Under the pieces are notes generated by a model that worked only from the letters and a program-made list of their open reading frames with translations, did not search any database and was not told the origin of the DNA. This document shows, piece by piece, positions 1,752-28,819 of a stretch of 34,485 nt of DNA. Numbering within the stretch: position 1 is the first letter of the stretch; every line of letters begins with the position of its first letter. The stretch is taken from IMG/VR virus record IMGVR_UViG_3300033148_006007, positions 1 to 34,485 of that record; one strand, written 5' to 3'. This stretch comes from a virus. The translations under genes and the position numbers were made by a program.

Positions 1752-1778
1752 AAAAGAGCTTATACAAACGAGGACAAT

Positions 1779-2645: not shown

Positions 2646-2655
2646 GAATAATATT

Positions 2656-5600
2656 ATGAGTATTATATTTGGTTCAGATGCTGGTATACGAGATGACTCA
2701 TTCGATGGGTTTGTTGGTGATATTACAGATACGTTCAATAAAGTTGCAGATACTGTTAAGAATGCTATCGAAGGAAAAGGTCCTCCTGCTCCTCCGAGAG
2801 AAAACGTACATGTTGATACGGGATTCGCTAACGTTCCCGGCACATCGTTTGTTGGGTCGACTGTTGATAATGTTGATGACATAAAACAAAGACACATAAT
2901 ATCTCAAGAACCAAGTATGACAGTTTATATAAAGAAAAGGGCTTTTTGGGGACTCAAAAGCGAAAATGAATCGAAGTTTATGGACAGCGGCGAGAAGCTT
3001 TTTATGCGTTCTTCTAAAATTCTTTTTGAAAAAAAATGTAATCAAATCGCATCATACGAAGCCTTAACAAAGTTATCGAAACTTGTTACAGAAGATGCGG
3101 GGTTAGACGCACAACATATTGCGGAAATAATGGAATTAATTAAAACCGTATTAGGAAATTCTCATACCGCGTTAGATGATTCTGCTGGAGCCATTAAATC
3201 ACGTGATCCAGATAATTTATCGTTTGTCGCCACGATTGATGAATCATTACTTGATCAAAAAAATACATTAAGTGAATCCGCCGAGGACTTACTTGAGTAT
3301 CTTAGCGAAATAAAGAAGAAGCAAGCAACGTTAAGCCAAGCAACCAATACAACTTGGGTAATCGATCCGAATACAAAAGATATTTCTGGTGTTGGCCGTG
3401 GATCTGGTGTCATAGAACTTACTTTGGTAAGCAACGCAAGTACATCTTTGGGTATACAGGGCGGAGGTACTATAAACTTTACCGCACAGGATCCATATAA
3501 TCTAATGAAGATCACAACAGATGATGTTGAGATTGCCGTTTCTGCTGCCAAACTAGAGAGTGATATATTTAATGATAGCGACAAGTATGGAGGACAAGTA
3601 GAGCTCAAAGGCGCGGCCACAATATTAGATGAAGCAAGAAGTAAAGAAGAAATACTGAGGAACATACGAGAGAACAAGATTGCTAGTATATTGGGCTTTG
3701 ATAGAACGATTGTTGGAAAATCCTCGATGGCTGAGATAGTTTTTGAAATTAACCCAACTTCCTCCGCGACCGATAGAGTTGTGGCGTATACAACATCGGT
3801 AGATGTTCCTCCGTTTAATAAAGATAGTTTCAGGATCGCGATGTTACAACTGCCAGCAGAACAACAGCTTACATCGGAAGAAGACGACTTGGTAGTACAG
3901 ATTTTTGAACTTTTGGGTGATTATGTTGATGCCGTTCAATCGATCAATACAAGAATAATAGATAACAACAAAGATAGCGACGTCACATATGCTAGAAGAC
4001 ATATGCGCGCTCATTATCTTGGTAAATCTATAATTCAGCCTATGGACAGCGTACACGTTTATATGCGTGGCAATACTGTAAAGCACAACGAAATTGTTGG
4101 TCCTCTTAGCACAATATTAAATAATTCCAGCTTTATAGACGAAATTGCCAAAAATAGCGATGTATCCGATGCAGTTATAGAAGCAGAAATGGAACAATTT
4201 GATATTAGTGGCCTAAAGATTCCTGTCGAATTTTACAAAGCCATGAGAACAAGTAGTTTTATGAGAAATGCCGGAACTCATGTTTTTGGCGGAGTTGTTA
4301 GTTCTGTATCTGAATCATATAATGCGAGTAATGGAACATATGTATTAAATGTAAATGGCGAAAGTAATTTAAAATGGCTAAATCTGTCTCGTGTGAATAC
4401 TTCTCCATCACTTGCTCAGCCAAAGGGAATGTTGGAAGACCCACTTACCCCATTTGATTACAAAACAGATGAAGCTACCGGACTCATTACAAAAGAGCCG
4501 CCGTTGTTGAGTATGAATATAGACGCAATGAATGATAACAAAATTAGAGACAAACATGGTGTTGGAAATGGGGCTCTTATTAGAAACAAAAGTGACGGAG
4601 ACCAAGACCAAATACCATTTGAAGAAAAGATGCGTATAGTTTGGAAACATGCGCCTGGGGTTGTATACCAATGGAAACATGGGGTGGCAGTTGCAACGTA
4701 CGATGTTAATTTATCGACATCTTTACAGGGAAAGGAGAATGATCTGGCGTTCCTAACCAGATATGTTGGGCTTACTTTGGTTGATCAGCCGTTTTCTGGA
4801 TTAGATGCTGCGGATATTGTTAGTTTATTGGTCACAGGGTATCCACACAGTGCGGGCAAGTTTTATGACAATGCGAAAGGAATTGGTACATTTACAACTG
4901 CTGGGTCAAATGCCGCCCCAAGCTATTTTCATTCGTTTTTTGATATCACCAGAACTACAAACAATGTGTTAGGAAATTTTCGTCCGTTTCGTGCGGTCGG
5001 CCTAGATGGACGATTAGCAGCTAGAAGATTATCTTTACAAACTTTCCTTAAGGAGGGTTATACAAAAGTAGACCAATTAAGGTCTGAAGTAGCAGCCAAT
5101 AGAGACAGACTTTTGTCAATAGATACGCGGCCAGAGGGAATAGTAACGCTCGAAATATTGCGCCAAAATGTAGAAAATGCAGAAAAGATTTATAAAGATA
5201 CTGGTTCAGATGCACCAGTAATAGAAGCACAAAGAATTTTTGACGAAAATGTAAAATCTGAGGGTAAACGCGATTTAACAAAACGTGCGTTAAAGGACGT
5301 AATAGGTAACCTGGAATCTCGTATAAGAACAGAGCTTGGTAATTTGGCAGAAAGCGCTAATCAGGCAAAAGAAGATAAGGTGATAGCTGACACGAGAAAT
5401 ATAGTTTTCAAACTAGACGAGATCCCAACAGGTTTGCCGAGTGAAGCACAGGAAGAAACAGAAAAAAGTATTAGACTTAGAAACAAAGTATTGCAAGTTA
5501 GAACGCAACATGATTGCAAATTTGGTACCGACGAGAACCTATTTATAGTTTCTGATCACTACGACAATGATAGAGAAATTCAGGCATTTGTAAGTAGGCT

Positions 5601-12791: not shown

Positions 12792-13220
12792 ATGTCTTTT
12801 GATTTTGCACTAATCAATGGTGATTTAAGTATCCTTCCTAACGGCGATGTTAGAACGATAACAGAAACACAAAAATTAAGGCAGGATGTATTGAAGATTG
12901 TTTTAACGCCACTTGGTAGCAATCGTTTTCATCCGTGGTATGGGTGTACAGTATCGGAAGATATCATTGGCAAAAGTCTTCCAGACAATATGATGTTACT
13001 TGATATTAAAACGTCGATCCAACAAAGTCTTGATAGATTAAGGAAGCTTCAGCTACAACAATTGACCACACAAAAGGTAAGTTTAGCAGAACTAATAAAT
13101 GTTATTGGGGAAATAATTGCTTATAGGGCTCCTGAAGATCGCAGGCAAATTAAAATAGATGTTACTGTATACTCAAGACGTTTGACCGAAGTTAATGAAA
13201 CATTTACACTAACGGAATAA
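12792..13220 (+). CDS. Baseplate wedge protein, gp25/gpW family
   Basis: The 142 aa length is close to T4 gp25 (132 aa). The pattern is typical of the family: an N-terminal beta segment 'DFALINGDLSILPNGDVRTI', then 'LRQDVLKIVLTPLGSNRFHPWYGC' in parts, where the 'L.T..G.....P.YG' element (residues 37-54) is the family signature. A central helix follows ('DIKTSIQQSLDRLRKLQ'), and the protein ends in a beta strand (about residues 118-128) that would pair in the wedge or sheath-start fold. In contractile tails gp25 links the baseplate wedge to the first sheath ring. It begins after a strong AAAGGAG and is followed 13 bases later by the gp6/J-like gene, the usual neighbour order in contractile systems. 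Confidence 0.88.
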   Translation: MSFDFALINGDLSILPNGDVRTITETQKLRQDVLKIVLTPLGSNRFHPWYGCTVSEDIIGKSLPDNMMLLDIKTSIQQSLDRLRKLQLQQLTTQKVSLAELINVIGEIIAYRAPEDRRQIKIDVTVYSRRLTEVNETFTLTE

Positions 13221-13233
13221 TTGGAGATAATCT

Positions 13234-16200
13234 ATGGCCATATACAAAACATTCAATGATTTGGTGATTTCTATGATAGAGCACCTTAGATTATTGCAAC
13301 CAGAACTTGATACAAAGCCAGGGACAGTATCTCGTGATGTCTTTATTGATGCGCCGTCACAACAATTGGCAAATTTATATTCGCAACTTAGGGCAATAGC
13401 AGGGTTGCAATCATTATTTTCTGCGTCTGGATCGGATCTAAATAGGTTGGGAGCAAACTATAGTGTTGCCAGAGCAGGTGGAGCAAGTGCAACTGGTGTC
13501 GCAGTTTTCACAACAAATAACCTGGATATAGATACGTTGATACCTAGTGGTTCTATTATAACTGCACGTAATGGTGTAAATTACGAAACACTAAGTCCGA
13601 TTGTTATGAAGTCTGACAGCGCTAATGTATATCGTGCAACAGCAACTAGGCTTCGTACAGAATTAAATTTAGCCTCGATAACTGATGAGTTTGCGATCGA
13701 GATTACAGTACAATCTTTAACATCTGGGCTCTCTGGAAATATTGGAAGATATTCTATTACATCACATAACATTAGCGGAATATCTAATATAACAAACTTA
13801 GGTTCGTTTTCTGGCGGAAGCAATGCAGAGAGTGATGACGAATACAGAACCAGAATATTAAGCATCTTTGCAGGAAGCAATACTGGAACCGCACTAGGAT
13901 ATGAAACCGCAATAGGCGTAGTTTCTGGCGTATTAGATTCAGAAATTGTTGTATTTGGAGACCCGTTATTAATTCGTGATGGAACACAGGTATCTACAGA
14001 TAGTTCTGGAAATCTTGTTGTATCAGATCCAGGAAGTGGCGGAAAAGTAGATATTTATGTTCTCGGAGAAGACCTAAATGATGAGATAGATTCGTTTATC
14101 TACAGCGATCAAGGCGGAAATGATGATCCAACGAGTCCAAGTAATGATGTGATTCTTGGACAAAAGGGCGAGGACACAACGCTTAATGCTGCTCAACGAC
14201 GTGTAACATTAATAGCAGCAAATGATTTACCGTTTCAGCCTGTTAAAAACATATTGACAGTATCCGGAAGTTCTTCTGGATCAAACTTTATAGAAAAGTT
14301 TGTAGATTCTAACGGAAGAACTAGGGGTAATTTTGAGTTGACCAAAGATGATGGAGATTTTGGAGGAAGTCCGTTTGGTTTTGATAAATTGCACTGGGTG
14401 TCAAACACAATAGAGCTTGAGGGCGAAGATATTACAAAAGGAGTTTTCAATGGATATGATCCTCTAAGTTTTAGTGATGTAAGTGAAATAAAAAGCATTA
14501 CACAAGATTTTTTGATTACGAATGAGAGCCCAATTGTAGATGTAAGTAATAGAAGTTCTATCACATTACGTCATACACCTATACGAAATGTCAGTCGTAT
14601 TGCAAACCTAACAAGCGGAGAGAGATATGTGATAGAAAATCAAAACCCTGATGGTACCGAGGGAAGCCTAAATACTACTGGAAAAGTTACTATTAGTGGA
14701 AATACGCTTCCTGTTGGAACCGATACATTGCAAGCAGATTACACATGGGTGAAGTCCTTTGATGCCGAATTTGATTTTGATAATCTTGATAACTACAATG
14801 AAGTTAGAATTGCACAAGATTCTGTAGATTGGGGTTTCGGGAATTTAGTTAAAAACGAACCAGCGTCCGTTACAGAAGATGCATATGGAAATATTACTGT
14901 AACTGTATCTCACCCAATCTATAGAGTAATATCTGTAAATACATTTGACACAGATACGTCTACAGTTTTAAACAATATTGTTGTGGCCACCAACGATGTA
15001 ACAAATATAATCGATGTGATTCGAGTATCTGATGGGGCAGATCTATTTAACACAGATGCTCGTGATGGATCGTTAACTGGTTCGGTGTCTATACTTTTGC
15101 CAACAGACACAATAGCATCCGATAATGATGTGGTATCATTAAGACTAAATGCTACTGATGTTTTTGACACAACTGATTACGGAATTGGCTCATTTGATGG
15201 TAGCATAATTTCTATACCAGCTGGTGCATCTAATGATGGAACATCTGTGTTAGTCAGTTATATTGCAAATGTGTCTGTGCTAATCCCTGAAAATGGATTA
15301 TCTGACCTGCCCATGGTAAAAAACTCAAATAAGTTTTTGTTTAGCGACAACGTTATAACTGGTGAACAACCTACATCAAATTTGTTAGATAGTAATTCTA
15401 ATTTTACTAATAATTTGCGTCGTGCTGGATCAAATATACGTGTTGAAATATCATCTACTCCGTCTGGCGGCAGCATTATAGTGTCAGGAACAACAGTAAG
15501 AAAAGTTGAAGATGCGCTTATAACTATAACATCTGGGTCTGGGTATGAGGCAGACCTACAATCTGCTATATTAAGTGACTCAGGCGCGTCATCTCTTAGT
15601 TCAAATATACGTATCTCAAAGCTTGTTAGTTTCGAAAGGGTTAATGTTGATAATACTGGTACTGTAACGTCAGTAGACAATACGTACGACATAATAAACT
15701 ATACTCTAAAGGATAGTTCATACGACCTTGATGCTGCTCGTACAGATGTTTCTTTGGGTAATACAGATTTATTGATACCACAAACACTGAACAACATTGC
15801 TGCGGCCCTAGATACCGGTGATATTGTGCGTGTAACATTTTACTACATAGAAACCAGTGTTTCGGAAACACTTTACTACTCAAGAAATGGATCACAGATA
15901 ACTGACAATGTTTTTATAGATATATCACGTATCTCGCTTGGTTCTGGTTTTACCAATGTTTCTGGCGATATTATAGGAAACATATCTGTACATAATTTTA
16001 ATCAGCCAGAAGGAAACACTACATACGGGTCTAGTTACAATTATACCGCTCCAAAGGAAGACGAACGTATAACCGTAACCTTCAATACAAACTCACTTAT
16101 GGGGTTGGCAACAAACGCAATAGAAGGTGTTCGTCCAATTACTGCAGATGTTTTAGTCAAAGAAGCCATAGCAAAAACAATATCTGTTAGTATTAATATA

Positions 16201-16467
16201 ATATTGCTTCCAGAGTATTCGGCACAAGCACAAACGGTAAAACAAGACGCTGTAGATGCCGTAACTTCTTTTCTAAACTCTGGTAGTTTGGGATCAACAG
16301 TTGATGCGTCAGACATAGTGAACACATTATATTCTGTTAGCGGAATAGATCGTGTTCGTATTATAAATTTTAGTGAAGATGGTGGAGGAAATACACTAAG
16401 CGTTTCGGCTGAAAAGAACGAATATCTTAATGCCGGAACAATTACAATAGAGGTAGAGGAGCGCTAA
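13234..16467 (+). CDS. Giant baseplate wedge protein, gp6 / baseplate J family
   Basis: This 1077-aa protein carries the N-terminal J-family pattern: 'KPGTVSRDVFIDAPSQQLANL' in part, then 'DLNRLGANYSVARAGGASATG' in part (residues 26-90). A second conserved block is 'GGSNAESDDEYRTRIL' followed by 'GTALGYETAI', with 'VVSGVLDSEIVVFGDP' after it (about residues 190-248). The C-terminal J block is 'ITADVLVKEAIAKTISVSI' followed by 'VDASDIVNTLYSVSGIDRV' (about 968-1045). Residues 250-950 are a long beta-rich insertion, full of Ser/Thr/Asn/Asp, that is absent from P2 gpJ and much larger than in T4 gp6 (660 aa). gp6/J proteins form the ring that holds the baseplate wedges together and switches on contraction. 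The start follows TTGGAGAT; the next gene begins two bases after the stop. Confidence 0.85.
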   Translation: MAIYKTFNDLVISMIEHLRLLQPELDTKPGTVSRDVFIDAPSQQLANLYSQLRAIAGLQSLFSASGSDLNRLGANYSVARAGGASATGVAVFTTNNLDIDTLIPSGSIITARNGVNYETLSPIVMKSDSANVYRATATRLRTELNLASITDEFAIEITVQSLTSGLSGNIGRYSITSHNISGISNITNLGSFSGGSNAESDDEYRTRILSIFAGSNTGTALGYETAIGVVSGVLDSEIVVFGDPLLIRDGTQVSTDSSGNLVVSDPGSGGKVDIYVLGEDLNDEIDSFIYSDQGGNDDPTSPSNDVILGQKGEDTTLNAAQRRVTLIAANDLPFQPVKNILTVSGSSSGSNFIEKFVDSNGRTRGNFELTKDDGDFGGSPFGFDKLHWVSNTIELEGEDITKGVFNGYDPLSFSDVSEIKSITQDFLITNESPIVDVSNRSSITLRHTPIRNVSRIANLTSGERYVIENQNPDGTEGSLNTTGKVTISGNTLPVGTDTLQADYTWVKSFDAEFDFDNLDNYNEVRIAQDSVDWGFGNLVKNEPASVTEDAYGNITVTVSHPIYRVISVNTFDTDTSTVLNNIVVATNDVTNIIDVIRVSDGADLFNTDARDGSLTGSVSILLPTDTIASDNDVVSLRLNATDVFDTTDYGIGSFDGSIISIPAGASNDGTSVLVSYIANVSVLIPENGLSDLPMVKNSNKFLFSDNVITGEQPTSNLLDSNSNFTNNLRRAGSNIRVEISSTPSGGSIIVSGTTVRKVEDALITITSGSGYEADLQSAILSDSGASSLSSNIRISKLVSFERVNVDNTGTVTSVDNTYDIINYTLKDSSYDLDAARTDVSLGNTDLLIPQTLNNIAAALDTGDIVRVTFYYIETSVSETLYYSRNGSQITDNVFIDISRISLGSGFTNVSGDIIGNISVHNFNQPEGNTTYGSSYNYTAPKEDERITVTFNTNSLMGLATNAIEGVRPITADVLVKEAIAKTISVSINIILLPEYSAQAQTVKQDAVDAVTSFLNSGSLGSTVDASDIVNTLYSVSGIDRVRIINFSEDGGGNTLSVSAEKNEYLNAGTITIEVEER

Positions 16468-16468
16468 T

Positions 16469-19400
16469 ATGGCACTAGCATATGTTCGTACACTTGAGTT
16501 AACTACATCAAACATTAATGTTTTGTTTAATGATGATATAGATACGAATATTGGTGTAGGTAATGTCACTATAGTATCGGAGTTTGACAGCATTCCTAAC
16601 CCAGAAATAAAATCAGTTAGTGTAGAGAATGATATAGTTTCAATATCGTTTAGTGCTCTTTTTCCAAATACTCAATATCGTATTGCCTTTGTGAATACAA
16701 GTGATCAAGCATTTCAGTCAGTAAATGGTGATAGAATTTTTGAAGATGGCAATAGAAACTCTTTCTTTATTGTTAGTCCAGGAGAGGAAGAAAGTGAAAT
16801 CAGAGATGCAATGTTCGATGATACATCGGTTCTATATGAAACTGGAGAGCCGACATTCGTACGTAATTTGATTTCATTAGATGCAAACCAACTACAAAAA
16901 GCATCAGATTCAATTGAGACAACAAAATCATCTAATTACATATCCGTTTTGGTTGAGAACGAGGTTAAAACAAGGGGAGATGGCCCAATTGACAAACTTG
17001 ACCACGGCGGCGCTTTTGAAATATTAAGGGTATCACAATCTCCATCAAGCGCGAATATAGCTTCTGAGCTGGAATTCAATAGCAGTAGGGTCTCGCCATT
17101 TAGTACGAGGGACGATATTATAATCAACCCTATTTTACAAACCCTTACCGGTGACCCAATTAGTGTTCAGTCTATCGATATAATAAGTGAAAAAGTAACA
17201 GATGACATTGGCGCTAGTAACCATTTTAGCGGACTATTGATAAAGGTTTCGAACATACCAGTAATCCAGGTGATTTCTGTTTCGTTAAAACGCGATAATA
17301 TTTATACAGAGTATGATATAAATGAGTTCGGATATGCATTAAAAGACAACAGATACGATACTACGTTGGGTTCGATAAATGTAAATCTATTGGATGGAGA
17401 AATAGCATTATCATCTAGTTCCATTACAGGACTATCTGGAGGTTTCTTATTGCCTCGTGCGGGGGATGAAATATATGTTTCATATGTGTACAAAAAGTTT
17501 GGCAGAAATATCGATTCTGATTCTGTAAACATATCACGAGTTCGCAACTCTGTTCGTGAATTAGTGCCAGCTGTAATTAACCGGTTTACATTAGAGAATG
17601 CGCCTATAGTAACACAGCTTGATACCGTTGCTACATCCAATGGAGTTGCGTTTCTACTTACTCATCTATCAAATGGGCAACCAGCATTTACTGCAGTGCA
17701 TCCTGCGTTTGCCAACGAGATACCATATAATATAACAAGGCTTCCATCTAGTATTGGAGAGTACTCTGTTAATTACGAAACAGGTGATGTTTTCGTATAT
17801 GGTGATGGTATAAATAATAGCGGTACAGGTGATGATACCCCAATTGCTAATTATCTGTATCGTCAGAGTTTTGTTAGTGGCCTGGATTTTACTTTTAATG
17901 GCGATATCGACGAAATTGCTGTAAACTCAACAAGAGGGTTGATAGGGCTGGAAGCAAAAATAACATTTGATTACGAAGATACATTGGCCGTAGGAACAGA
18001 TTACAGAGTGTTGTCACATGTAGAGGTATTAAACGAGAGGGCTGAGAATAGACTAACAAGCGACTTTACAATACAGTCGGAATATTTTCCCGTAACCAAT
18101 GTATTTAGAATTCTTAACGAAACAACCGGGGAATTATATGACTTAGAAAGATTTAATGATACGTCAATTTCATTCACTGGTACGAGGCAACCGAGGCAAC
18201 ATGATATTACTCGTGAGAGAGCGTTATTCGAAAGGGTTCCTCAAGAAATATTATTAGTATCTGATGAGTTTGAAAATTCGCTTGGTTTACGGGTACTGAA
18301 AGTAGATCTTGAAAATAACGGAATTACTGATGCGCAAGGAACATACATAGGTGCTAATTTTGATAGCTCTGTTGTTTTTTCTGATACTGATTTGTTTGTT
18401 AGAGAGTTCTTTTATGAGGATAGGCTGTTTCAGAATGTTGATACCAATATATGTCGTTTAGAGGGTATAGGAGACTACATAATTGATTATACTAATGGTA
18501 TCGTTTATGTTGCTGTTAGTTCTGCACAGGGAACTGATTTGGGAGACATTATATACAGACACAAACAAATAGAAACTCTCAATAAACATATACTTGGTGT
18601 TAACGACATTTATAGAAGCAAAAGCTCAATACAACCAAATATAACCACATATAGTATTGGTACAATAACAGACACGACAGTTGGCATAATTGGTTTAGAA
18701 CAAGTTGGCGCAAGATTTGTTAACAACGATGTGGTGCGAACTTTATTAGTAGGAACCCACAAAAGTGGTGAGGACGGAGTGGCAGTAGCGAATTCGAATG
18801 TATTTTCGTCATTTGGCGCAATATTCACGTCTGCTGATATAGGTAGAACATTAGTTGTTGGTTCGGCATCACAGACTCCAGTACAGGAAGTGCTGATAAC
18901 CGGTATTGTTAGTAATCATGAGGTTACAGTAGATCCCGTGCTAAATTATACAAAAAGCGGACGAGTATGGTCGGTTTTAGACTTATCTACTGGTGCGTCT
19001 AAGACAATTACGTTAGATTACGATATCGTGACAGTTAAAGACATATATACCGTTACACAGGTTGGTTCCTTGCCATTTTCTTTACTTGATGGTTATTTTG
19101 ATGTTGATAACGATACAGTATCGGGAAATACAATTACATTAAGTGACAGTAGTAATTTAAATGTTGGAGACGCAATAGTTGTAAATTACAATCCTGGCAG
19201 TATCTTTGTTGATTATAGATATTTGCAAGATGAGATATTAGTATCATATGAGTATGGTAATAACAGTTTAGATTGGAGTTTAAGTGATGCTTTGCTTGCT
19301 GGAGAAGAGTATTATGTTACATACAAATACGGTGCTCTTCGCGAGTCATTGTTACTTAATTTTGGATCGCTTACTCAGATATCACAATTAACAAATTTTT

Positions 19401-21889
19401 CTCCAAACCTAGATAGAGAGTTGTATCGATCTATTGTTAGCGGAACATTACAGTCATTTGTTGAAGGGCCGACAATTACGTCTTTGGAGAGACTTGTTGA
19501 GTCTTTTACAGATGTAACTCCTGAAATAAGTGAGACTGCATTTGATAATTGGGTGCTTGGAAGAGACAATCTTCATTTAAGAGATCCGGAATATAGTTCT
19601 GGGCAAATGTTTGATATTGGTAAATTTGACAATGGTGTTATAATTGGTGATACAACAACAATTCAGATTCCAGCATTATCACATTTTAAGCTTAGTGAGG
19701 GAACATTAGAGGCTTGGATTAGACCACAATGGAGTGGTATTGCAAATGACGCAACGCTAACATTTGATTTATCAATTGATGGATATTCAGATCCAACCGA
19801 TGTATATATTGGGTTTTCTGGAACAAACCCAACAAGTATTCCATTTTCGTTAAGCGTTAATGACGACATATCTGTTTTCAATGAACCAATAGATCTCAAT
19901 ACCACTACAGGATTTTTTATATGGTTTGATGACACAAACAATACGTGGAATTTTAGATGGAGTGGAGCAACAGAAGAATCAAAAGAATTTTCTGGATCAA
20001 TCACAACAGATGGAGAGTTCTATGGTATTGCTCGGCCAATTGCAAGCGACGGGTATGAAATAAATGAAATAACGGATGTGATCACAAGTACAATACACGG
20101 AATCGATTTTACTGCGTTTATTGATGATCTTGATGCCGTGCGTACATCTGGTGAATTTGCTACTGACGGAATATCTTTTTATGCTGATAATAGTCATTAT
20201 ATTTTTGATATGGCGGAGAAACCAGCAGCCAACAGAGTTTCATTATTTAGAGACGGAACCGGGTATTTAAATTTCCAAGTATTTGATAATATGGCGAATT
20301 TTGGATTGGCTGCTGGGTTTTATAATATTTCTAAAAATATTCGTGATTGGGAGTCAGGTAGTTTACATCACGTTGCAATATCTTGGAAGTTTAACTCGTC
20401 TGATGAAAGAGACGAAATGCACATGTTTGTTGATGGAGAGGAAGTCACCAATCTATTTAAATATGGCGGAAACCCAAAGGCAAGTTCTTTATTTGATTTT
20501 GGTGATGTCTCTGAAGAAACTATAGTTAATTATTCTTTGCTTCCTATATTAGGTGCTCGTGATGGCTCTACAACCGCCGGCTCAACACTGTTTATGTCCG
20601 AATCTGCAGATTTCGGCGGATCTGGTGTGTTGGTAGGACATTTGCTTTACTTATTAGATGACACTGCAGATGGAGTTGGTGATCCTAATTTTGGGGCCAC
20701 ATATACTGTGACTGGGGTAGGCACAACCACCCTAACATTAGACAGAGCACCAACATTAACTATTGGAGATCTACATTATAGTATAAATTCGTTAACCAGC
20801 ACCGTTTCATCGTTGGTTAATATTCAAGACTTTGTCGTAATAGTGTCCGACATATTGGGGAACGAAACAGAATTAAATGGACTTGATTCAGAGTTTCCAG
20901 ATTATTCAGTGCGCCGTGGATCAGATAACACACATGTAATCACAATTAACAATGGAATAAGTGTATCAGATAGTGCCGTAATAAAACCACTCGGATTATT
21001 GTTAAAACGATGCAGAGAAAGGGTTTATGTTTATGACGGAGGGTACGATGAACTTCGTGTAAACTCTGCATCTCCAGTTAGTTTATCTGATATACGCATT
21101 ACATCTATAATATTAGATAGAACCCTAATTGCTACTGGCGATGGGTTTGGAATGGTCGGCACAATAATAGGTGCTCAGCTGGTTTCGATGTTACAGTCAT
21201 ATTTCGATAGTGTTTGCCAACCAAGTAACCAATCTTCCGGTAGGAGATTGGCAATTACTATGTCTGGTAATAATTTTAATTACGACATACATGGCAACAA
21301 AGTTATAATATCAGGAACAACAAATTCTGGCGCGATTAAGGAAACTATATTGTTTACAGAAAGTACAACAATATCGACAAATGAATATTGGACATATATA
21401 GATTCAATAGTGGTTTCTGCTTTGCCAATCGATGCGTCTATAGCTGCAGGAGCTATAGAAATTAAAGAGTACCAGCCAATAACAATATCAGAAAATAATG
21501 GAGATTTTGCAGAAGTTGTAGAATATTCTAATGGTATAATAAGGTTAGAAACATATGGTACAGGTGGAAATCCATTTATATTAAATGGCTGTACATATGA
21601 GATTGATTACCCATCGTATTTAAGGATACGTGTTGATGCGCAACCAGATACTTTTTATATTGGGAGCGATTATGCAGGAGAGAATAGACTCGATGGTATT
21701 ATGGATGAGTTTAGGATATTAGATTATATATCCAGCGATACAAGGGTTGGAGAATTAGTAACATCAGGATCTATCACAACTGATTACACCAACTTACAAT
21801 CATTTTCTGACAACAGTAATACACTATTATTGTTGCATTTTAATGATAGCATAGAAGATTCATCAACATTTAGGGTGGTACAGCGATAA
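16469..21889 (+). CDS. Very large baseplate wedge/fibre protein with LamG-like domain, first-frame part
   Basis: Frame one gives 1806 aa. The N-terminal 100 residues look Ig-like ('SISFSALFPNTQYRIAFVNT'). Repeated beta units follow, for example 'IGEYSVNYETGDVFVYGDG' (about 428-446) and 'IGDYIIDYTNGIVYVAVSS' (about 667-685). Residues 950-1031 form a conserved-looking helical block ('SLTQISQLTNFSPNLDRELY'). Then comes a LamG/concanavalin-like lectin fold: 'LSEGTLEAWIRPQW' (about 1075-1090), 'LHHVAISWKFNSSDERD' with 'MHMFVDGEEV' (about 1298-1325), and after a 400-residue insertion the closing strand 'LDGIMDEFRILDY' (about 1740). Its position after gp25/J suggests a gp7-like wedge or fibre role with glycan-binding ability. 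The frame ends abruptly at 21889 inside the start of the next LamG unit, after 'LLLHFNDS'; see the next entry. Confidence 0.72.
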   Translation: MALAYVRTLELTTSNINVLFNDDIDTNIGVGNVTIVSEFDSIPNPEIKSVSVENDIVSISFSALFPNTQYRIAFVNTSDQAFQSVNGDRIFEDGNRNSFFIVSPGEEESEIRDAMFDDTSVLYETGEPTFVRNLISLDANQLQKASDSIETTKSSNYISVLVENEVKTRGDGPIDKLDHGGAFEILRVSQSPSSANIASELEFNSSRVSPFSTRDDIIINPILQTLTGDPISVQSIDIISEKVTDDIGASNHFSGLLIKVSNIPVIQVISVSLKRDNIYTEYDINEFGYALKDNRYDTTLGSINVNLLDGEIALSSSSITGLSGGFLLPRAGDEIYVSYVYKKFGRNIDSDSVNISRVRNSVRELVPAVINRFTLENAPIVTQLDTVATSNGVAFLLTHLSNGQPAFTAVHPAFANEIPYNITRLPSSIGEYSVNYETGDVFVYGDGINNSGTGDDTPIANYLYRQSFVSGLDFTFNGDIDEIAVNSTRGLIGLEAKITFDYEDTLAVGTDYRVLSHVEVLNERAENRLTSDFTIQSEYFPVTNVFRILNETTGELYDLERFNDTSISFTGTRQPRQHDITRERALFERVPQEILLVSDEFENSLGLRVLKVDLENNGITDAQGTYIGANFDSSVVFSDTDLFVREFFYEDRLFQNVDTNICRLEGIGDYIIDYTNGIVYVAVSSAQGTDLGDIIYRHKQIETLNKHILGVNDIYRSKSSIQPNITTYSIGTITDTTVGIIGLEQVGARFVNNDVVRTLLVGTHKSGEDGVAVANSNVFSSFGAIFTSADIGRTLVVGSASQTPVQEVLITGIVSNHEVTVDPVLNYTKSGRVWSVLDLSTGASKTITLDYDIVTVKDIYTVTQVGSLPFSLLDGYFDVDNDTVSGNTITLSDSSNLNVGDAIVVNYNPGSIFVDYRYLQDEILVSYEYGNNSLDWSLSDALLAGEEYYVTYKYGALRESLLLNFGSLTQISQLTNFSPNLDRELYRSIVSGTLQSFVEGPTITSLERLVESFTDVTPEISETAFDNWVLGRDNLHLRDPEYSSGQMFDIGKFDNGVIIGDTTTIQIPALSHFKLSEGTLEAWIRPQWSGIANDATLTFDLSIDGYSDPTDVYIGFSGTNPTSIPFSLSVNDDISVFNEPIDLNTTTGFFIWFDDTNNTWNFRWSGATEESKEFSGSITTDGEFYGIARPIASDGYEINEITDVITSTIHGIDFTAFIDDLDAVRTSGEFATDGISFYADNSHYIFDMAEKPAANRVSLFRDGTGYLNFQVFDNMANFGLAAGFYNISKNIRDWESGSLHHVAISWKFNSSDERDEMHMFVDGEEVTNLFKYGGNPKASSLFDFGDVSEETIVNYSLLPILGARDGSTTAGSTLFMSESADFGGSGVLVGHLLYLLDDTADGVGDPNFGATYTVTGVGTTTLTLDRAPTLTIGDLHYSINSLTSTVSSLVNIQDFVVIVSDILGNETELNGLDSEFPDYSVRRGSDNTHVITINNGISVSDSAVIKPLGLLLKRCRERVYVYDGGYDELRVNSASPVSLSDIRITSIILDRTLIATGDGFGMVGTIIGAQLVSMLQSYFDSVCQPSNQSSGRRLAITMSGNNFNYDIHGNKVIISGTTNSGAIKETILFTESTTISTNEYWTYIDSIVVSALPIDASIAAGAIEIKEYQPITISENNGDFAEVVEYSNGIIRLETYGTGGNPFILNGCTYEIDYPSYLRIRVDAQPDTFYIGSDYAGENRLDGIMDEFRILDYISSDTRVGELVTSGSITTDYTNLQSFSDNSNTLLLLHFNDSIEDSSTFRVVQR

Positions 21890-22971
21890 AGCTCACAGAT
21901 GATAGGTCATATAGAATAAGTAATGCTAAATCAGTTTTCAATGCAAATGAGGGAACAATTGAATTCTGGGTAAGTCCATTAAATGATTCGAGAGGAGATC
22001 CTAATTATCATTACTATGTGGATATGTCCGCCGTTATAGATGAAAATTTAGAATCTACATCATCGCTAACCGTTACAACCACTACATCAATAAGAGCGGT
22101 TGAGAGTGTTCGATTAGTTACTGATATACACAATTCCGGAACCAACTATTTTACTGGTGGATCTGTTTCCAGTGTTGATTTTAAGACAATTACGTTAGGA
22201 ATACCACTACCGGCACAGAATGTTATGGTAAAGGTGACATTCGTTCCACTAAGAAACCAAGGAGATAGAGTTAGTATATTTATGGATCCTGGTGCACGAA
22301 TTAACTTTTTTGTAAAAGCGTCTAATATTGAGCACATGATAACTATCCCTGTGTCATGGGAAAGGTCAACATGGCATAGAATAATGGTGATGTGGAAAAT
22401 GAACAGTACAGATAATCAAGACCGGTTACGTTTATTTGTAGATGGTAGCGAAAGAGGAATCGTAAAATATGGTACAGGATTAATATATGGTACTGGTGTA
22501 ATTTATGGCCAAGCAGAGGTAAGACCAGGCGTAAACAGATTCTTGGTCGATAATATAGACTTAACGGATACATTTGCACAAATACACATTGGAGCAGATG
22601 TATTTGGATCAAATGGTGCAATGGCATTAATGGATAACATAAGATTCTCAGACATACAGAGGGTTTTGTCAATAAGAATAACATCCAACGACACATTTGA
22701 TATAAATTATTCGAGTAATACTGATTTTGCTGGACCAGTTGTTAATGATATAGATACAACAGCAATATACGATTTCGATACTACGATAAGCGATGTACAG
22801 AATCTGGCAACACTAATTAATGCAGAAAGAGGAATATTTAGATTCATGGTAAGGGTTATAGACTCGTTTGACAAAATATACGACAACGAGGACCTAAGAA
22901 ACCTGTTGGAAGAGCTAATAAATACAATAAAACCAGCTCATTGTGAAAGCGTTATAACCTTTGAGGAATAA
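21874..22971 (+). CDS. Second-frame continuation: second LamG-like domain of the large wedge/fibre protein
   Basis: The frame one base back (-1) is open from 21874, just after its TAG at 21871-21873. It reads 'GGTAIKLTDDRSYRISNAKS', then 'NEGTIEFWVSPLND', a LamG start equivalent to 'SEGTLEAWIRPQW' upstream. Further on, 'WHRIMVMWKMNSTDNQDRL' with 'LFVDGSERGIVKYG' mirrors 'LHHVAISWKFNSSDERD' in the first LamG unit, and 'MALMDNIRFSD' is the closing strand. The first ATG (22018) lies inside the LamG core and has no ribosome binding site, so an independent start there is unlikely. The last residues are helical ('NEDLRNLLEELINTIKPA'). With the frames joined, the protein would be about 2167 aa. The join fits one missing base at the GGG 21873-21875. 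Confidence 0.72.
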   Translation, partial: GGTAIKLTDDRSYRISNAKSVFNANEGTIEFWVSPLNDSRGDPNYHYYVDMSAVIDENLESTSSLTVTTTTSIRAVESVRLVTDIHNSGTNYFTGGSVSSVDFKTITLGIPLPAQNVMVKVTFVPLRNQGDRVSIFMDPGARINFFVKASNIEHMITIPVSWERSTWHRIMVMWKMNSTDNQDRLRLFVDGSERGIVKYGTGLIYGTGVIYGQAEVRPGVNRFLVDNIDLTDTFAQIHIGADVFGSNGAMALMDNIRFSDIQRVLSIRITSNDTFDINYSSNTDFAGPVVNDIDTTAIYDFDTTISDVQNLATLINAERGIFRFMVRVIDSFDKIYDNEDLRNLLEELINTIKPAHCESVITFEE

Positions 22972-23104: not shown

Positions 23105-25930
23105 ATGACTAGACCTATTCTAAAAAGGGTAAACTTCTTTGATGGCCAAGAGATATCAGAGACAGATATGGATGTTGAACAGACTGCGTGGCACGATAGT
23201 GTTGCCAATAACACAGACTTTTTGGTTGGTACTGGGGTTGAGAAAGAATTTTCTATCCAAAAAGTACTGTTTGATACAAATAGTGTTCCTGCTTCTGTAA
23301 CTACACTTATAAATGGCGTAAATTTTGATGGTGCACCACTATACACAACAGATTCACTTGGGCAAAGTATATTTTTGCAGCCATCTGATAGTACAAATGG
23401 AAATCAGTTTGAAGTTGAGCTATCCGGCGCGGCATTAGACGGAAGCAATGTAACCAGAGTATACCTTTTTGGTACAATTTTTGGAGGATCATTTGTTCAT
23501 GAGGTGATTTCTTTTGAGACAAATGAACCCCAAGTAACTACACATTACTTTACGCAGTTGATTTCTATCATGACACAAGATTTCTTGGGAAATCAGAACA
23601 CAACAATTGATGGAATTGCGTCAAGAAATCTCGGCGGTTGTCTAAGGATAATGGAATCATTGTCAATGACCCTGGCTCGTGACGCTATTATGGCCCAACA
23701 GGCTATAGAGCCAAATATGGACTATGTTAATTTTAAGCCGTCGACATCAACAAAGACATTAGATAATCTTTTGGATGAAATAGCGGCAACAGAAGGGCTG
23801 AGTGCAGACGACTTGAAAATTAATGTTACGGCTACATCAACTCGAAATTTATCAGCAAATAATAGCACTGGTTTAATTGTCGGACAAAAATTTAAGGCAA
23901 CAACAAATAACATTCAAAAAATATCAATTCTTCTGGCAGTAGAAGAAAATACGCTGGCAGTTCCTGGCGAAGAATTTGATTGGTCCGGAGATATTGTGAT
24001 TGGTGTGCGAGCATTACAAACAACAACACAGTGTCCTACCGATACAATTCCAAATACATCTATTGAGTTTGACCCAGAGCTATCACCTATTGCAGAGGTG
24101 TCGTTCGATCAAAATGGATTGGCTGAGCTTGGTGTTTCACTAAATGGATCGCCCCAAGTGGTTGATTTTATTTTTACGCAATCGCTATTGGCCAACCCAA
24201 ATATTGAACCGAGTATTGAGCCAGACAAATATTATATTATTACGATAAGACGGTCTGGAAATATTAGTAATGGAACCATCGTTTTGCAGGAAGCGGCAAA
24301 CACAAATGCAAGCCCAGACGAAACAGACGAAACTATAATGGCAATATTTTCGCAAAATGTGTGGACCGATGTATCAGATACAGATTTATGGTTTCGTGTG
24401 TATACTGATGCCATTAGACTTACTTCCGGAACAGCATTTGATAGTGGTGTTCAAATTACGACACCAAAGATTAAAACGAATGAAACAACCGGTGTAGACG
24501 AAACGTATATTGAGGGCAATATTAGTTTTATCGACGTATCACAAACTACAAAGAATTATGTTATGGTTCAGAAATCAATAAGTTTTACTGACGCTGTAAC
24601 ACACCCATCAACAGGCAATCGGGTATTTTCCAGAATTGAGGATGTGCCGGATATAGCAGTAGTTTCGGAGAGTACTCTTACGACACTAATTGATGCAGGT
24701 AGTGACCCTATTGTGATTGGCTCAGCTCGTGATACAAATCCAGTTGGCAACCCTAATGTTACCGGAGTCACAGAGTTTCCTGGTTTACTTCGTTCCAGCA
24801 CGTTTTCAATTATAAACCCAACATCAGATATACAATTGAACAACTTTGTTGGATCAATTTTGGTTCCGAATTCAAATAAGCCAGAGCTAAAATACAAAAT
24901 TACAAAAATAGAGATAATAGATGATGCGTACGGTGATGTAGATGGTGACGGCACTATTGGATTAGATGATATTACACGCGCACAAGCACTTAATGGGTAT
25001 TCTAAAAACTTACAATCTGGCACAGTTCCGTCAGCCGAACAAAAGGCCGCCATCGTCGCTGGATCTGTCACAATGGAAGAAATTATTCGTGCAGATGTCA
25101 CAAACAATGGTATAATAAACATATTTGACACACAAATGATTCAACAAAATGTTGCGTTTGGAACGGCTTTTACTGCAGGTAGTAGTTTCCGTCGCGCAGT
25201 AGTAACGGTTGAAAATTTAATTGATCCACTTACGACAACTGTGGATATGATTTCTGCAGATAGTACATTCAATGATGTTCCATTTGTGTCACTTCCGTTC
25301 AGGATTGACTTTGTTCCATTATGGGCGCCACATAATATTGAAATTACAGATCTAAGAAGGTTTATTCCAAAAACATTCACACAAATCGAATCAACTGATA
25401 TCACAGGAAGTGTACCAAACGGAGGCAAAAACACTTCGTTTGTGCCAGGCGACATTCTTTTGGGAGGTGATATATTATCACCAGATGGAAGTGTTTATAA
25501 GATTGATATGGAGACAAGTACAATAGCCATAGATCTTCCAGAGGGGTCGACACAAGGAGAGGTTGATATATTCTCGAACTTCATCAAAGGCCAGATGAGT
25601 TTCTATGACGGAACCATTGTTGCGACTGGAGCGTTGGAGGCTGATCAGGTTAGGGTATCGGCAGCTATACAGTCATTCGTTAAGGACTCAAGCGGTCTCG
25701 ATTTTGACTCGGGTGATGGGTATGTTGAGGTCGAAACAACAGTTGCTTTGCTGTATAACCAAACATCAGGCTTGTTAAGAATAAGAGCAAATAACATTAG
25801 AAATATAGTTACAATGCCAGAATTGCGCACTAGGGTAATCCTAACGGTATTTCTCAAAAAGGCAGGATTCAACAACACAGAAGTTTCGGTTTCAGCAGCA
25901 AGGTTACAAGAATTGTTGGTTTTTGTGTAA
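23105..25930 (+). CDS. Tail fibre/baseplate structural protein with embedded dockerin-like domain
   Basis: This 941-aa protein starts at ATG after AAGGGG. The N-terminus 'LKRVNFFDGQEISETDMDVE' resembles the opening of DUF4815-type phage tail proteins ('R-V-x-(F/Y)-F-D-G-Q'), which attach to the baseplate. A helical block covers residues 150-200, and the middle (220-560) is beta-rich and Thr/Asn-rich. Residues 609-685 hold two dockerin-type calcium-loop helices: 'DVDGDGTIGLDDITRAQAL' and the weaker 'DVTNNGIINIFDTQMIQQNV'. Both keep the 1/5/12 ligand pattern (D611/D615/D622; D664/N668/D675). The final 100 residues are beta-rich, with 'DGYVEVETTVALLYN' and 'GLLRIRANNIRN'. It closes the structural run; the next gene is a homing-type endonuclease. 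A fibre or fibre-connector role is inferred. Confidence 0.65.
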   Translation: MTRPILKRVNFFDGQEISETDMDVEQTAWHDSVANNTDFLVGTGVEKEFSIQKVLFDTNSVPASVTTLINGVNFDGAPLYTTDSLGQSIFLQPSDSTNGNQFEVELSGAALDGSNVTRVYLFGTIFGGSFVHEVISFETNEPQVTTHYFTQLISIMTQDFLGNQNTTIDGIASRNLGGCLRIMESLSMTLARDAIMAQQAIEPNMDYVNFKPSTSTKTLDNLLDEIAATEGLSADDLKINVTATSTRNLSANNSTGLIVGQKFKATTNNIQKISILLAVEENTLAVPGEEFDWSGDIVIGVRALQTTTQCPTDTIPNTSIEFDPELSPIAEVSFDQNGLAELGVSLNGSPQVVDFIFTQSLLANPNIEPSIEPDKYYIITIRRSGNISNGTIVLQEAANTNASPDETDETIMAIFSQNVWTDVSDTDLWFRVYTDAIRLTSGTAFDSGVQITTPKIKTNETTGVDETYIEGNISFIDVSQTTKNYVMVQKSISFTDAVTHPSTGNRVFSRIEDVPDIAVVSESTLTTLIDAGSDPIVIGSARDTNPVGNPNVTGVTEFPGLLRSSTFSIINPTSDIQLNNFVGSILVPNSNKPELKYKITKIEIIDDAYGDVDGDGTIGLDDITRAQALNGYSKNLQSGTVPSAEQKAAIVAGSVTMEEIIRADVTNNGIINIFDTQMIQQNVAFGTAFTAGSSFRRAVVTVENLIDPLTTTVDMISADSTFNDVPFVSLPFRIDFVPLWAPHNIEITDLRRFIPKTFTQIESTDITGSVPNGGKNTSFVPGDILLGGDILSPDGSVYKIDMETSTIAIDLPEGSTQGEVDIFSNFIKGQMSFYDGTIVATGALEADQVRVSAAIQSFVKDSSGLDFDSGDGYVEVETTVALLYNQTSGLLRIRANNIRNIVTMPELRTRVILTVFLKKAGFNNTEVSVSAARLQELLVFV
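24929..25159 (+). other. Dockerin type I-like double calcium-binding motif (residues 609-685)
   Basis: The first loop, D611-x-D613-x-D615-G-x-I-x-x-x-D622, is followed by a helix beginning 'ITRAQAL'. The second loop, starting at D664, keeps D, N, N and D at positions 1, 5, 9 and 12 and is followed by the helix 'TQMIQQNV'. About 40 residues separate the loops, somewhat longer than usual in dockerins. In bacteria dockerins bind cohesin domains; here a structural calcium-binding hinge is equally possible. Confidence 0.6.
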
Positions 25931-25952
25931 TTTTTGTGTTATTTGGTGTAAT
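25922..25952 (+). repeat. Three imperfect copies of TTTGTGTAAT before the endonuclease gene
   Basis: TTTGTGTAAT (25922-25931), TTTGTGTTAT (25933-25942) and TTTGGTGTAAT (25942-25952) run from the last codons of the structural gene to the ATG of the endonuclease. They fill the whole junction and leave no clear Shine-Dalgarno site. Confidence 0.4.
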
Positions 25953-26930
25953 ATGTATAATAGGGCAATAGTGAAGAAGGGAATAATATACAAAGCTACT
26001 GGCCCAACTGGAAAGGTGTATATTGGAAAAACTGTTCAAGGTTTAAAAAATAGAATAAAAGGACATAAAAATACATCTAATAATCCAAATAGCAAAACAT
26101 ATGGTTGCCACTTTGCCAGAGCTATTCGTAAATATGGAATAAAAGAGTTTGATTGGGAAATATTATTGGACAATATTCCGGCGACATATTTGGGCGATGT
26201 AGAAAAAATTATTATAAGTTTGTATAATTCTTACGAGCGTGGATATAATTCTACAATTGGCGGAGAAGGAACTACAGGAAGAATGTTGTCAGAAAGCGAG
26301 AGAAATGCCATATCAGAAAGGCAGCGTGGAAAAAATAATTCGTTTTATGGGAAAACACATACCAATGAAGTCAAAAAGATGTTAAGTGATAAAAGCAAAA
26401 TGATGTCAGGTCCAAATCACCCACAATACGGAAAAAGTCTTTCTGATGCAACCAAATCAAAAATGTCTAAAGCTTTGTCTGGGGAAAGTAATCCATTTTA
26501 CGGAAGATCTCATTCTGTTGAGGCCAAGTTAAAAATATCAAGGGCACGTCTCGGAACGTCCATGTCCGAAGAAACTAAGAAGAAAATATCAAAAACAATG
26601 TCCAAAAAACATTCTGGTAAAAATAACCCATTCTATGGCAAAAAACACTCGAAAGACACCAAAGACAAAATATCGCAATGGTCAAAAGAATTTGTAAGAA
26701 CCGAATCGCATAAAAACAAAATATCTGAATCGAACAAGAGAACTAAAAGAAAAAACTCTATGAAGTCTGCTGTGCCGTTTGTTGTTAGGGAAAATGATAA
26801 TATTGTGGGAGAGTGGTTGTTGGCAGTAGAGTGTGCCGAAGATCTAAATCTGGATTACGGCAGCATACTCAAATGTCTCAAAAACAAACAAAAAATCCAC
26901 AGAGGATATACATTTAAATTTAAGGAATAA
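25953..26930 (+). CDS. GIY-YIG homing endonuclease with NUMOD3 repeats (Seg/I-TevI-like)
   Basis: I choose ATG 25953 (325 aa); the open frame reaches back to a TTG at 25923, but that overlaps the upstream gene. The GIY-YIG nuclease domain covers residues 8-106: 'GIIY' (10-13), 'YIG' (23-25), R34, H38, catalytic E84 and N99 in 'GYNSTIGGEG'. Residues 126-245 hold NUMOD3 DNA-contact repeats such as 'NPFYGRSHSVEAKLKIS' and 'NPFYGKKHSKDTKDKIS'. The end, 'LLAVECAEDLNLDYGSILKC' to 'GYTFKFKE', fits a NUMOD1-type helix-turn-helix. This is a free-standing, all-residues-present enzyme of the kind that cuts related phage genomes and spreads itself and its flanks. The ribosome binding site is poor. The gene carries the Shine-Dalgarno site (AAGGA 26922-26926) of the next gene in its last codons. 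Confidence 0.9.
   Translation: MYNRAIVKKGIIYKATGPTGKVYIGKTVQGLKNRIKGHKNTSNNPNSKTYGCHFARAIRKYGIKEFDWEILLDNIPATYLGDVEKIIISLYNSYERGYNSTIGGEGTTGRMLSESERNAISERQRGKNNSFYGKTHTNEVKKMLSDKSKMMSGPNHPQYGKSLSDATKSKMSKALSGESNPFYGRSHSVEAKLKISRARLGTSMSEETKKKISKTMSKKHSGKNNPFYGKKHSKDTKDKISQWSKEFVRTESHKNKISESNKRTKRKNSMKSAVPFVVRENDNIVGEWLLAVECAEDLNLDYGSILKCLKNKQKIHRGYTFKFKE
26328..26688 (+). repeat. NUMOD3 repeat block in the endonuclease gene
   Basis: Four full repeats and one partial one follow the pattern G-x-x-N-P-F-Y-G-K-x-H-S-x-x-T-K-x-K-I-S. They lie at residues 126-245, are rich in Lys and Ser, and are typical DNA-backbone-contacting modules of homing endonucleases. Confidence 0.8.
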
Positions 26931-26933
26931 ACA

Positions 26934-28130
26934 ATGGTTCTTGACATTAGGGCATATACATGGCTGGCCCAAGGGCTCAGCTGGGCATATGTGGTCGAAA
27001 GGCTTATCAATGCGTTCGATGATATGGGACATAATACACACATAGTGTCAACAAACGGCATTAACGAACAAGCATTTAGCGAAAACAAAATGACGAAATC
27101 GATCATTGGGCTTCAAAAATTTGGGCCAGGCAAAAAAGCTATAGATATCGATTTCTGCTATACGGTTCCAATCAATTTTCCAAAACGGTTTCTCGCCAAC
27201 TCAAAACACAAATGCGCAATTTATAATTACGAAACAACTTTGTGGCCGAAAGATTGGAAAAGATACTATCATCTTGTTGACTATTATTTTCCAAGTTCAA
27301 ATTTTTCTGCCGAGGTTTTTTATAATAATGGAATACCACCAGAGAAAACATTTGTTATCCCTCATGGCGTAGACAAAAAGGTATTCAATAAAGATATTAA
27401 GCCCATCAAACTAAAGACAAAAAAGAAATTTAAGTTTGTTGCTGTTGTCGCCCCACACTTTAGAAAGAATATTCCGGCATTATTAGAGGCATATTGTCAA
27501 GCATTTACGAAAGATGACGATGTATGCCTAGTCCTTAAAACAAAATCATACAAACATTCTGATGGAATGTATCATATGCAAAAGAATCCAAGCGGCCGAA
27601 AAGGGTTTGAGATTATACTTGGAGATGTGTTTAGAGACATATACAAAAAATATGGTAACAACATTCCAGAAATAGAATTGTTAAATGGGCATGTAGAAAA
27701 CGTTTCAAGTATTTATAATGTTTGTAATTGTCACATTTCAACTACCGGCAGTGAGGGGTGGGGAATGCCTTTTATCGAGTCAATGGCTTGTGGATTATTA
27801 AACATAGCTCCTCGATATTCGGGGCATTTGCATTTTATGAATGATGATAACTCTCTGTTAATAGATACTACAATAAGATATGCAAGAAATGTTGAACAAT
27901 ACTGGACATTTAACCCAAAAAGCAAAATTGGAGAAGTAAAAATAGGTCATACTGTTGATCTTATGAGAAAAGCATACAAAGAGTATGACCAACTAATAGA
28001 AAAATTTACACCCAGTATGAACGAGGTGGTTGATAGGTTTAGTTGGGAATATGCAGCACAACTAATAATAGATTCTGTGGAAGGCAGAAACCCACATTAT
28101 GTACCAGGAACGTATGGTTTACCAAAATGA
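26934..28130 (+). CDS. GT4-type (GT-B fold) glycosyltransferase
   Basis: This 398-aa protein has the GT4 pattern: an N-terminal acceptor half opening with 'WLAQGLSWAYVVERLINAF' and including 'FVIPHGVDKKVFN', and a C-terminal nucleotide-sugar half. The latter has 'VVAPHFRKN' (R177, K178) and the E-x7-E motif in 'GSEGWGMPFIESMACG' (E274, E282). It would transfer a sugar from a nucleotide donor, with retention of configuration in most GT4 enzymes; donor and acceptor cannot be told. No signal peptide or membrane helix is visible, so it should act in the host cytoplasm. It starts four bases after the upstream endonuclease, uses the AAGGA inside that gene, and its stop overlaps the next start (ATGA). 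It heads a run of glycosyltransferases. Confidence 0.88.
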   Translation: MVLDIRAYTWLAQGLSWAYVVERLINAFDDMGHNTHIVSTNGINEQAFSENKMTKSIIGLQKFGPGKKAIDIDFCYTVPINFPKRFLANSKHKCAIYNYETTLWPKDWKRYYHLVDYYFPSSNFSAEVFYNNGIPPEKTFVIPHGVDKKVFNKDIKPIKLKTKKKFKFVAVVAPHFRKNIPALLEAYCQAFTKDDDVCLVLKTKSYKHSDGMYHMQKNPSGRKGFEIILGDVFRDIYKKYGNNIPEIELLNGHVENVSSIYNVCNCHISTTGSEGWGMPFIESMACGLLNIAPRYSGHLHFMNDDNSLLIDTTIRYARNVEQYWTFNPKSKIGEVKIGHTVDLMRKAYKEYDQLIEKFTPSMNEVVDRFSWEYAAQLIIDSVEGRNPHYVPGTYGLPK

Positions 28131-28819
28131 CCACAAAGGGCAAAATGAAAAAAGTTAGTATTATAATTCCAGTGTATAATCAGCTTAAGATGACCATAGA
28201 TTGTCTTGGCGATGTTATACGAACATATGGCGTTGAAACAGAGATAATAGTGGTTGATGATTGGTCAAAAGAACCAATAAGCAAAGCCATACCAAAATTA
28301 TTCCCAGATATTAAGCTATTAACGAATGAGCGTAATGTTGGGTTCGCAAAGACAGTGAACAAAGGGATACAGGCCGCGTCTCATGATTTGGTTTGTTTGT
28401 TAAATAACGATATTAGACTTCCAAACCCTGCGTGGCTTAAAATAATGACAGATTCAATGGACGAATATGATTTAACGGCCCCTGCAGGTGGAAGAATGGA
28501 CTCTAAATGGAATTATCAACCAGGAGAAGCAAAAAAACGAGGAGATAGGTTTTCTTATCTGCCGTTTTGGTGTATATTAATAAAGCGAGCGGTCTTCGAT
28601 AAAATTGGCGATATCCCAACGGATTTCTCAAAAGGTTTTTTTGAAGACGTGCTATGGGGATACCGGGCAAAGAAAGCAGGATTTAAAGCAGGAATAACAG
28701 AGAATACAGGAGTACAACACCTGTATCACGCAACGTTTAAGGCAGCAGGATATAATTTAGCAGAAGAGTATCAGGTTAAACGAAAAATATTTTTAGACAT
28801 TTTGGGAAAGGAAAAATAA
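28127..28819 (+). CDS. GT2-type (GT-A fold) glycosyltransferase
   Basis: I choose ATG 28127, which overlaps the previous stop as ATGA; the open frame extends upstream but only inside the preceding gene. A second ATG at 28145 after AAAGGG is possible. The 230-aa product has 'VSIIIPVYNQ' (9-18), 'VVDDWS' (41-46), 'NERNVGFAKTVNKGI' (67-80), 'LLNNDI' (90-95, the DxD-equivalent metal site) and 'FFEDVLWGYRAKKAGF' (170-185, catalytic-base region), with H197 and H200 after it. This is a compact GT2 enzyme without membrane helices. Members add sugars to glycans, proteins or lipids; the substrate cannot be read from sequence. Coupling to the GT4 gene suggests that the two act in one pathway. Confidence 0.87.
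   Translation: MTTKGKMKKVSIIIPVYNQLKMTIDCLGDVIRTYGVETEIIVVDDWSKEPISKAIPKLFPDIKLLTNERNVGFAKTVNKGIQAASHDLVCLLNNDIRLPNPAWLKIMTDSMDEYDLTAPAGGRMDSKWNYQPGEAKKRGDRFSYLPFWCILIKRAVFDKIGDIPTDFSKGFFEDVLWGYRAKKAGFKAGITENTGVQHLYHATFKAAGYNLAEEYQVKRKIFLDILGKEK

Follow-up and report, generated by a model that had tools for sequence, protein, structure and literature searches.

Residues 605–693 of a 941-residue protein encoded in the window (the whole 34,485-nucleotide stretch of viral DNA analysed here) are, judged by profile matches, conservation and predicted fold, a genuine dockerin with two calcium-type F-hands folded like those of cellulosomal dockerins. The module was gained before the family of this protein split and is now a fixed, integral and ancient part of it: in a wide lineage of uncultured phages, many of them giant, a bacterial docking module has been domesticated and become a permanent component of the tail machine. 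We demonstrate here its predicted fold, the conservation of its loops, its vertical inheritance and its gene context (Table 1).

The dockerin module and its predicted fold

Residues 609–685 of the protein (YGDVDGDGTIGLDDITRAQAL...EEIIRADVTNNGIINIFDTQMIQQNV) form two loop-helix units, the first with a near-canonical loop, DVDGDGTIGLDD (D-V-D-G-D-G-T-I-G-L-D-D), and the second with a weaker one, DVTNNGIINIFD (D-V-T-N-N-G-I-I-N-I-F-D). Type I dockerins have two duplicated F-hand calcium loops with Asp at positions 1 and 12 and Asn or Asp, infrequently Ser or Thr, at positions 3 and 5 (PMC5590126). In the family alignment the ligand positions 1, 3, 5 and 12 are complete, with D, N, S or T at the first three and D at the last, in 92 of 93 rows for loop 1 and in all 93 for loop 2. 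The second loop, which the preliminary description had called weaker, is firmly established by the homologues, all 93 of which read D/N664, D/N/T/S666, D/N668 and D675, position 664 being Asp in 90 rows and Asn in the remainder. Only 31 columns of the whole protein are invariant across the 93 rows, and G610, D611, D622 and D675 are four of these. The strict pattern of loop 1 did not occur in 5000 shuffles of the protein, and a loose loop pattern matches it exactly twice, at 611 and 664; by composition alone, two or more loose matches arose in 11 of 2000 shuffles.

Table 1. Features of the dockerin-bearing protein and of the genes upstream of it, in window coordinates.
Feature	Residues	Positions	Strand	Basis or remark
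gp25-like baseplate wedge subunit		12792..13220	+	PHROG_2669, 120, 43
gp6-like baseplate wedge (Baseplate_J)		13234..16467	+	PHROG_6, E 2.4e-40; PF04865, E 9.8e-22
Giant gene, gp7 position		16469..22971	+	Laminin_G_3/concanavalin-like matches; split in window
Dockerin-bearing baseplate protein		23105..25930	+	open ORF, 941 aa; 98 non-identical family members, from uncultured phages
Jelly-roll lectin-like domain	193-435	23681..24409	+	AF2 model, VIA-align
Beta strand into dockerin	597-608	24893..24928	+	DSSP on AF2 model
Dockerin module	605-693	24917..25183	+	VIA-align to dockerin structures; Dockerin_1 match 609-682
Calcium loop 1 (D1 D3 D5 D12)	611-622	24935..24970	+	G610, D611, D622 invariant, 93/93
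F-hand helix 1	620-628	24962..24988	+	AF2 model
Linker between the two F-hands	633-656	25001..25072	+	helix 644-652; ~100-aa beta-rich domain inserted here in 47-row 'long' clade
Calcium loop 2 (D1 T3 N5 D12)	664-675	25094..25129	+	D675 93/93, D/N664 93/93, R662 92/93
F-hand helix 2	673-685	25121..25159	+	AF2 model
Beta strand out of dockerin	694-704	25184..25216	+	DSSP on AF2 model

When the segment was excised, the Pfam profile Dockerin_1 (PF00404) matched it over profile positions 1–55 of 57 (E = 7e-4), and the whole protein gave E = 0.021. At 20.1 bits the window protein alone remains below the curated cut-off (gathering threshold, 22.9 bits), but the profile is significant (E < 0.01) in 60 of 64 relatives, comprising 26 of 29 with a short linker and 34 of 35 with a long one (best E = 8.4e-13). 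Eight of 18 phage records score above the cut-off, with matches confined to the dockerin-bearing gene. Searches of PDB sequences with a profile of the family placed dockerins first when only the module was used (8x39, 4e-11; 4uyq, 5e-10; 1ohz, 7e-8), and with the whole protein ranked dockerins (from 7.8e-10 down) above calmodulins.

An AlphaFold2 (AF2) model made with the 93-row alignment reached a mean pLDDT of 86.2 and a pTM of 0.78; a run on five close relatives was discarded at a pLDDT of 31. Per 10-residue block, pLDDT was about 85–93 over the calcium loops and helices and 66–83 in the linker at 631–660, with helices predicted at 620–628, 644–652, 657–663 and 673–685. By VIA-align, residues 605–693 of the model superpose on the dockerin crystal structures 8x39 (Z 9.4, 2.0 Å over 66 residues), 4uyp (Z 9.3) and 4fl4 (Z 8.9), and the module on 2ccl (Z 8.6, 1.9 Å over 60 residues, 33% identity). 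The dockerin-like loop pair proposed at 609–685 from the sequence is thus borne out by the Dockerin_1 matches of the relatives, by conservation and by the predicted fold, in which both loops are present.

In the same model the dockerin sits inside a beta domain of the baseplate protein; both ends of the module enter strands of that domain, from which it would project as a tethered knob. The jelly-roll domain nearer the N-terminus, taken to residue 477, resembles residues 568–1026 of a baseplate protein of Staphylococcus phage phi812 (9euj chain G; Z 14.5, rmsd 3.1 Å over 157 residues), which has the jelly-roll alone in common with the window protein and has no reported dockerin match, and it also resembles the lectin-like domain of Cwp84 (VIA-align Z 12.4). 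The stretch at the end of one family member of 1508 aa (locus L090, positions 3–4526) gives a match at E = 7e-4 to phrog_972, a tail-fibre proximal subunit, and a weak one to the C-terminal domain of a depolymerase, which suggests that the C-terminus can carry a fibre.

Family and inheritance

Searches of IMG/VR found 24 loci with a five-row alignment as query, at least 80 with a 19-row alignment, and 72 and 79 with two other alignments. Pooled, these gave 98 non-identical proteins, which fell into 93 clusters at 88% identity and supplied the aligned rows (n = 93). The contigs that carry the family reach 481 kb, and full-length identity drops to about 30%. All 82 distinct full-length relatives found with a bait from outside the dockerin region of the protein keep both calcium loops. 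The spacing between the loops is 34–52 aa, or about 125–170 aa where a beta domain is nested between them, giving an unusual architecture of a domain within a dockerin within a beta domain. In a tree built without the dockerin region, all 47 members with the nested domain lie beyond one branch (SH-aLRT 100), indicating that the insertion was gained, or lost, once. The divergence of the dockerin follows that of the remaining sequence (Mantel r 0.75, reached in 0 of 300 permutations; 0.78–0.90 for other 58-column blocks of the protein), so the module has been inherited vertically and not exchanged as a cassette.

A first scan of contigs from a collection of bacterial and archaeal genomes found no family member, and only one contig in that collection, of 383 kb and from a Chitinophagales bin, was found to carry one. 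It has the same order of a giant ORF followed by the dockerin ORF, and is therefore probably phage. Among 50,697 phage records, no relative was found with the window protein, two distant members or the Chitinophagales-bin member as query; a query of the dockerin only gave one weak match, in Ruminococcus phage NatCom_28274 (E = 0.7). The loci beside the gp6 homologues of phage G and Tunturi_5 likewise hold no family member. The best match in a viral structure library is A0A6J5RS54 of an uncultured Caudovirales phage, a full-length structural homologue (Foldseek E = 1.2e-83, query TM-score 0.71, 23% identity) whose 1332 aa resemble the long-insert clade. It is named 'Dockerin domain-containing protein' in UniProt, so a domain label already exists, and this label looks automatic. 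In the paper library searched, we found no paper that describes or analyses this dockerin-bearing phage family; two phage papers mention dockerins, in connection with a CBM match from modelling and an observation made with blastp, and not with this baseplate family.

Gene context

The dockerin gene adjoins homologues of gp25 and gp6, as in the baseplate wedge region of T4-type phages, and a gene resembling a tail-tube initiator also lies upstream. The dockerin-bearing protein itself matches no PHROG family. Directly 5′ of its gene, in every relative inspected, stands the giant gene. We conclude that the product is a peripheral baseplate protein, encoded 3′ of gp25, gp6 and the giant gp7-position protein, and the label of phage tail protein that the window's gene had received agrees with its place within a baseplate gene block. 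In 14 relatives the giant gene is a single ORF of 2180–2385 aa; the window instead has two ORFs, 16469–21889 (1806 aa) and 22018–22971 (317 aa), about 130 bases apart, a split due either to a sequencing error or to a real disruption.

A homing-endonuclease-like gene (25923–26930; NUMOD3 repeats, E = 9e-35; I-HmuI NUMOD-like), a mobile gene inside the structural operon, overlaps the dockerin gene at its end. After the baseplate block come two glycosyltransferase genes (26934–28819, families 1/4 and 2), which may modify virion or host glycans.

Proposed role and recognition face

We suggest that the dockerin probably serves the baseplate as an element of its structure or assembly that is stabilised by calcium. 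Calcium binding would fold and rigidify the dockerin knob, and the folded knob would keep the beta domain around it in shape, or else its contact with an adjacent baseplate chain; with the shape of the knob held by calcium, the baseplate would, on this proposal, need calcium for assembly or for staying competent. Our inferences are the calcium occupancy of the loops, the partner contacted and what calcium does in the baseplate. If calcium does gate the dockerin, there would be a concrete basis for calcium-dependent adsorption or assembly in jumbo phages.

Dockerins contact their cohesins at positions 18 and 22, among others. The positions with which cellulosomal dockerins read cohesins also include 11 and 15 (PMC5429695) and 10 and 17 (PMC5590126). 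In the phage family, positions 10, 11, 17 and 18 of both F-hands lie between the 78th and 97th percentiles of variability within the protein, whereas the calcium ligand positions lie between percentiles 0 and 16, with the exception of position 3 of loop 2, at 34. At an intermediate percentile (57) lies position 22 in the second F-hand, where 69 of 93 rows have R or K. Variable contact positions beside constant ligands argue that selection acts on the calcium fold and not on one fixed cohesin contact; the same variability would also be expected if each phage docked its own co-evolving partner.

The structural role, to which the calcium-controlled hinge of the preliminary description corresponds, is more likely than docking to another virion protein, in which the dockerin would plug into a cohesin-like beta domain, most plausibly of the giant protein encoded upstream, and form a calcium-dependent joint in the baseplate. 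Docking of proteins is the established function of dockerins, the giant ORF is adjacent in every locus inspected and its product has lectin-like beta domains, but the contact positions are unconserved and the partner fold that the preliminary description had envisaged elsewhere in the genome did not emerge: no window protein matched a cohesin profile, none in the window and 17 related records (18 in all, mostly partial) scored over the cut-off, in a search that cohesin-like folds can escape, and the fold matches of the whole-protein model include nothing cohesin-like for the C-terminal beta region. One sub-threshold match of 14.5 bits, to the hub protein of one phage, was judged to be chance because the window's hub homologue gives none. 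We therefore regard such docking as possible but rather doubtful. More speculative still, and in our judgement unlikely, is a calcium-gated joint between the dockerin and a cohesin-like domain inside the virion, in which a captured cellulosome docking module would act as an assembly or triggering switch in the baseplate of this jumbo-phage lineage, taking up calcium outside the cell and losing it in the cytoplasm, where calcium is low and the particle is assembled.

The preliminary description had also considered that the dockerin might bind a host cohesin, and a device for recognising the host by plugging into a surface cohesin of a cellulosome or adhesion scaffold would be compatible with a baseplate location and with recognition positions that vary as they do in species-specific dockerins. 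We consider this very improbable. The dockerin is present in every full-length member of a family that is only about 30% identical, it has been inherited with the protein and not exchanged, unlike receptor-binding tips, it presents no conserved contact face, and in the model it is bounded at both ends by strands of a beta domain and does not hang from a flexible tail. There is no sign of cellulosomal hosts, the only cellular contig found being the phage-like one of 383 kb from the Chitinophagales bin. To our knowledge, Chitinophagales are not a cellulosome lineage. Least credible of all is that these are generic EF-hand-like calcium loops which resemble dockerins by convergence, even with a window score under the Pfam cut-off and weak matches to EF-hand models, as the family profile favours dockerins over calmodulins by several orders of magnitude, 60 of 64 relatives match Dockerin_1, and the model superposes on dockerin structures over 60–67 residues at 1.9–2.4 Å and 18–33% identity.

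With type I dockerins (PF00404; 8x39, 4uyp, 4fl4, 2ccl/1ohz) the phage module thus shares two duplicated F-hands with Asp at 1 and 12 and Asn or Asp at 3 and 5, a helix after each loop, and the same predicted fold (Z 8.6–9.4). Unlike the cellulosomal type I modules, which are terminal in an enzyme or scaffoldin, it is inserted internally in the beta domain of a virion protein; it further differs in its unconserved recognition positions, in a loop spacing of 34–52 or about 125–170 aa, and in that no cohesin was found. The protein does not qualify as a cellulosome component, lying in a myovirus-type baseplate gene block with no cohesin over the cut-off, and the word 'dockerin' in a phage genome should be read with caution before a cellulosome link is drawn from it. 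A different viral protein, of 319 aa (locus L306, positions 2794–3750), carries a dockerin at its N-terminus and resembles the present family in the dockerin alone.
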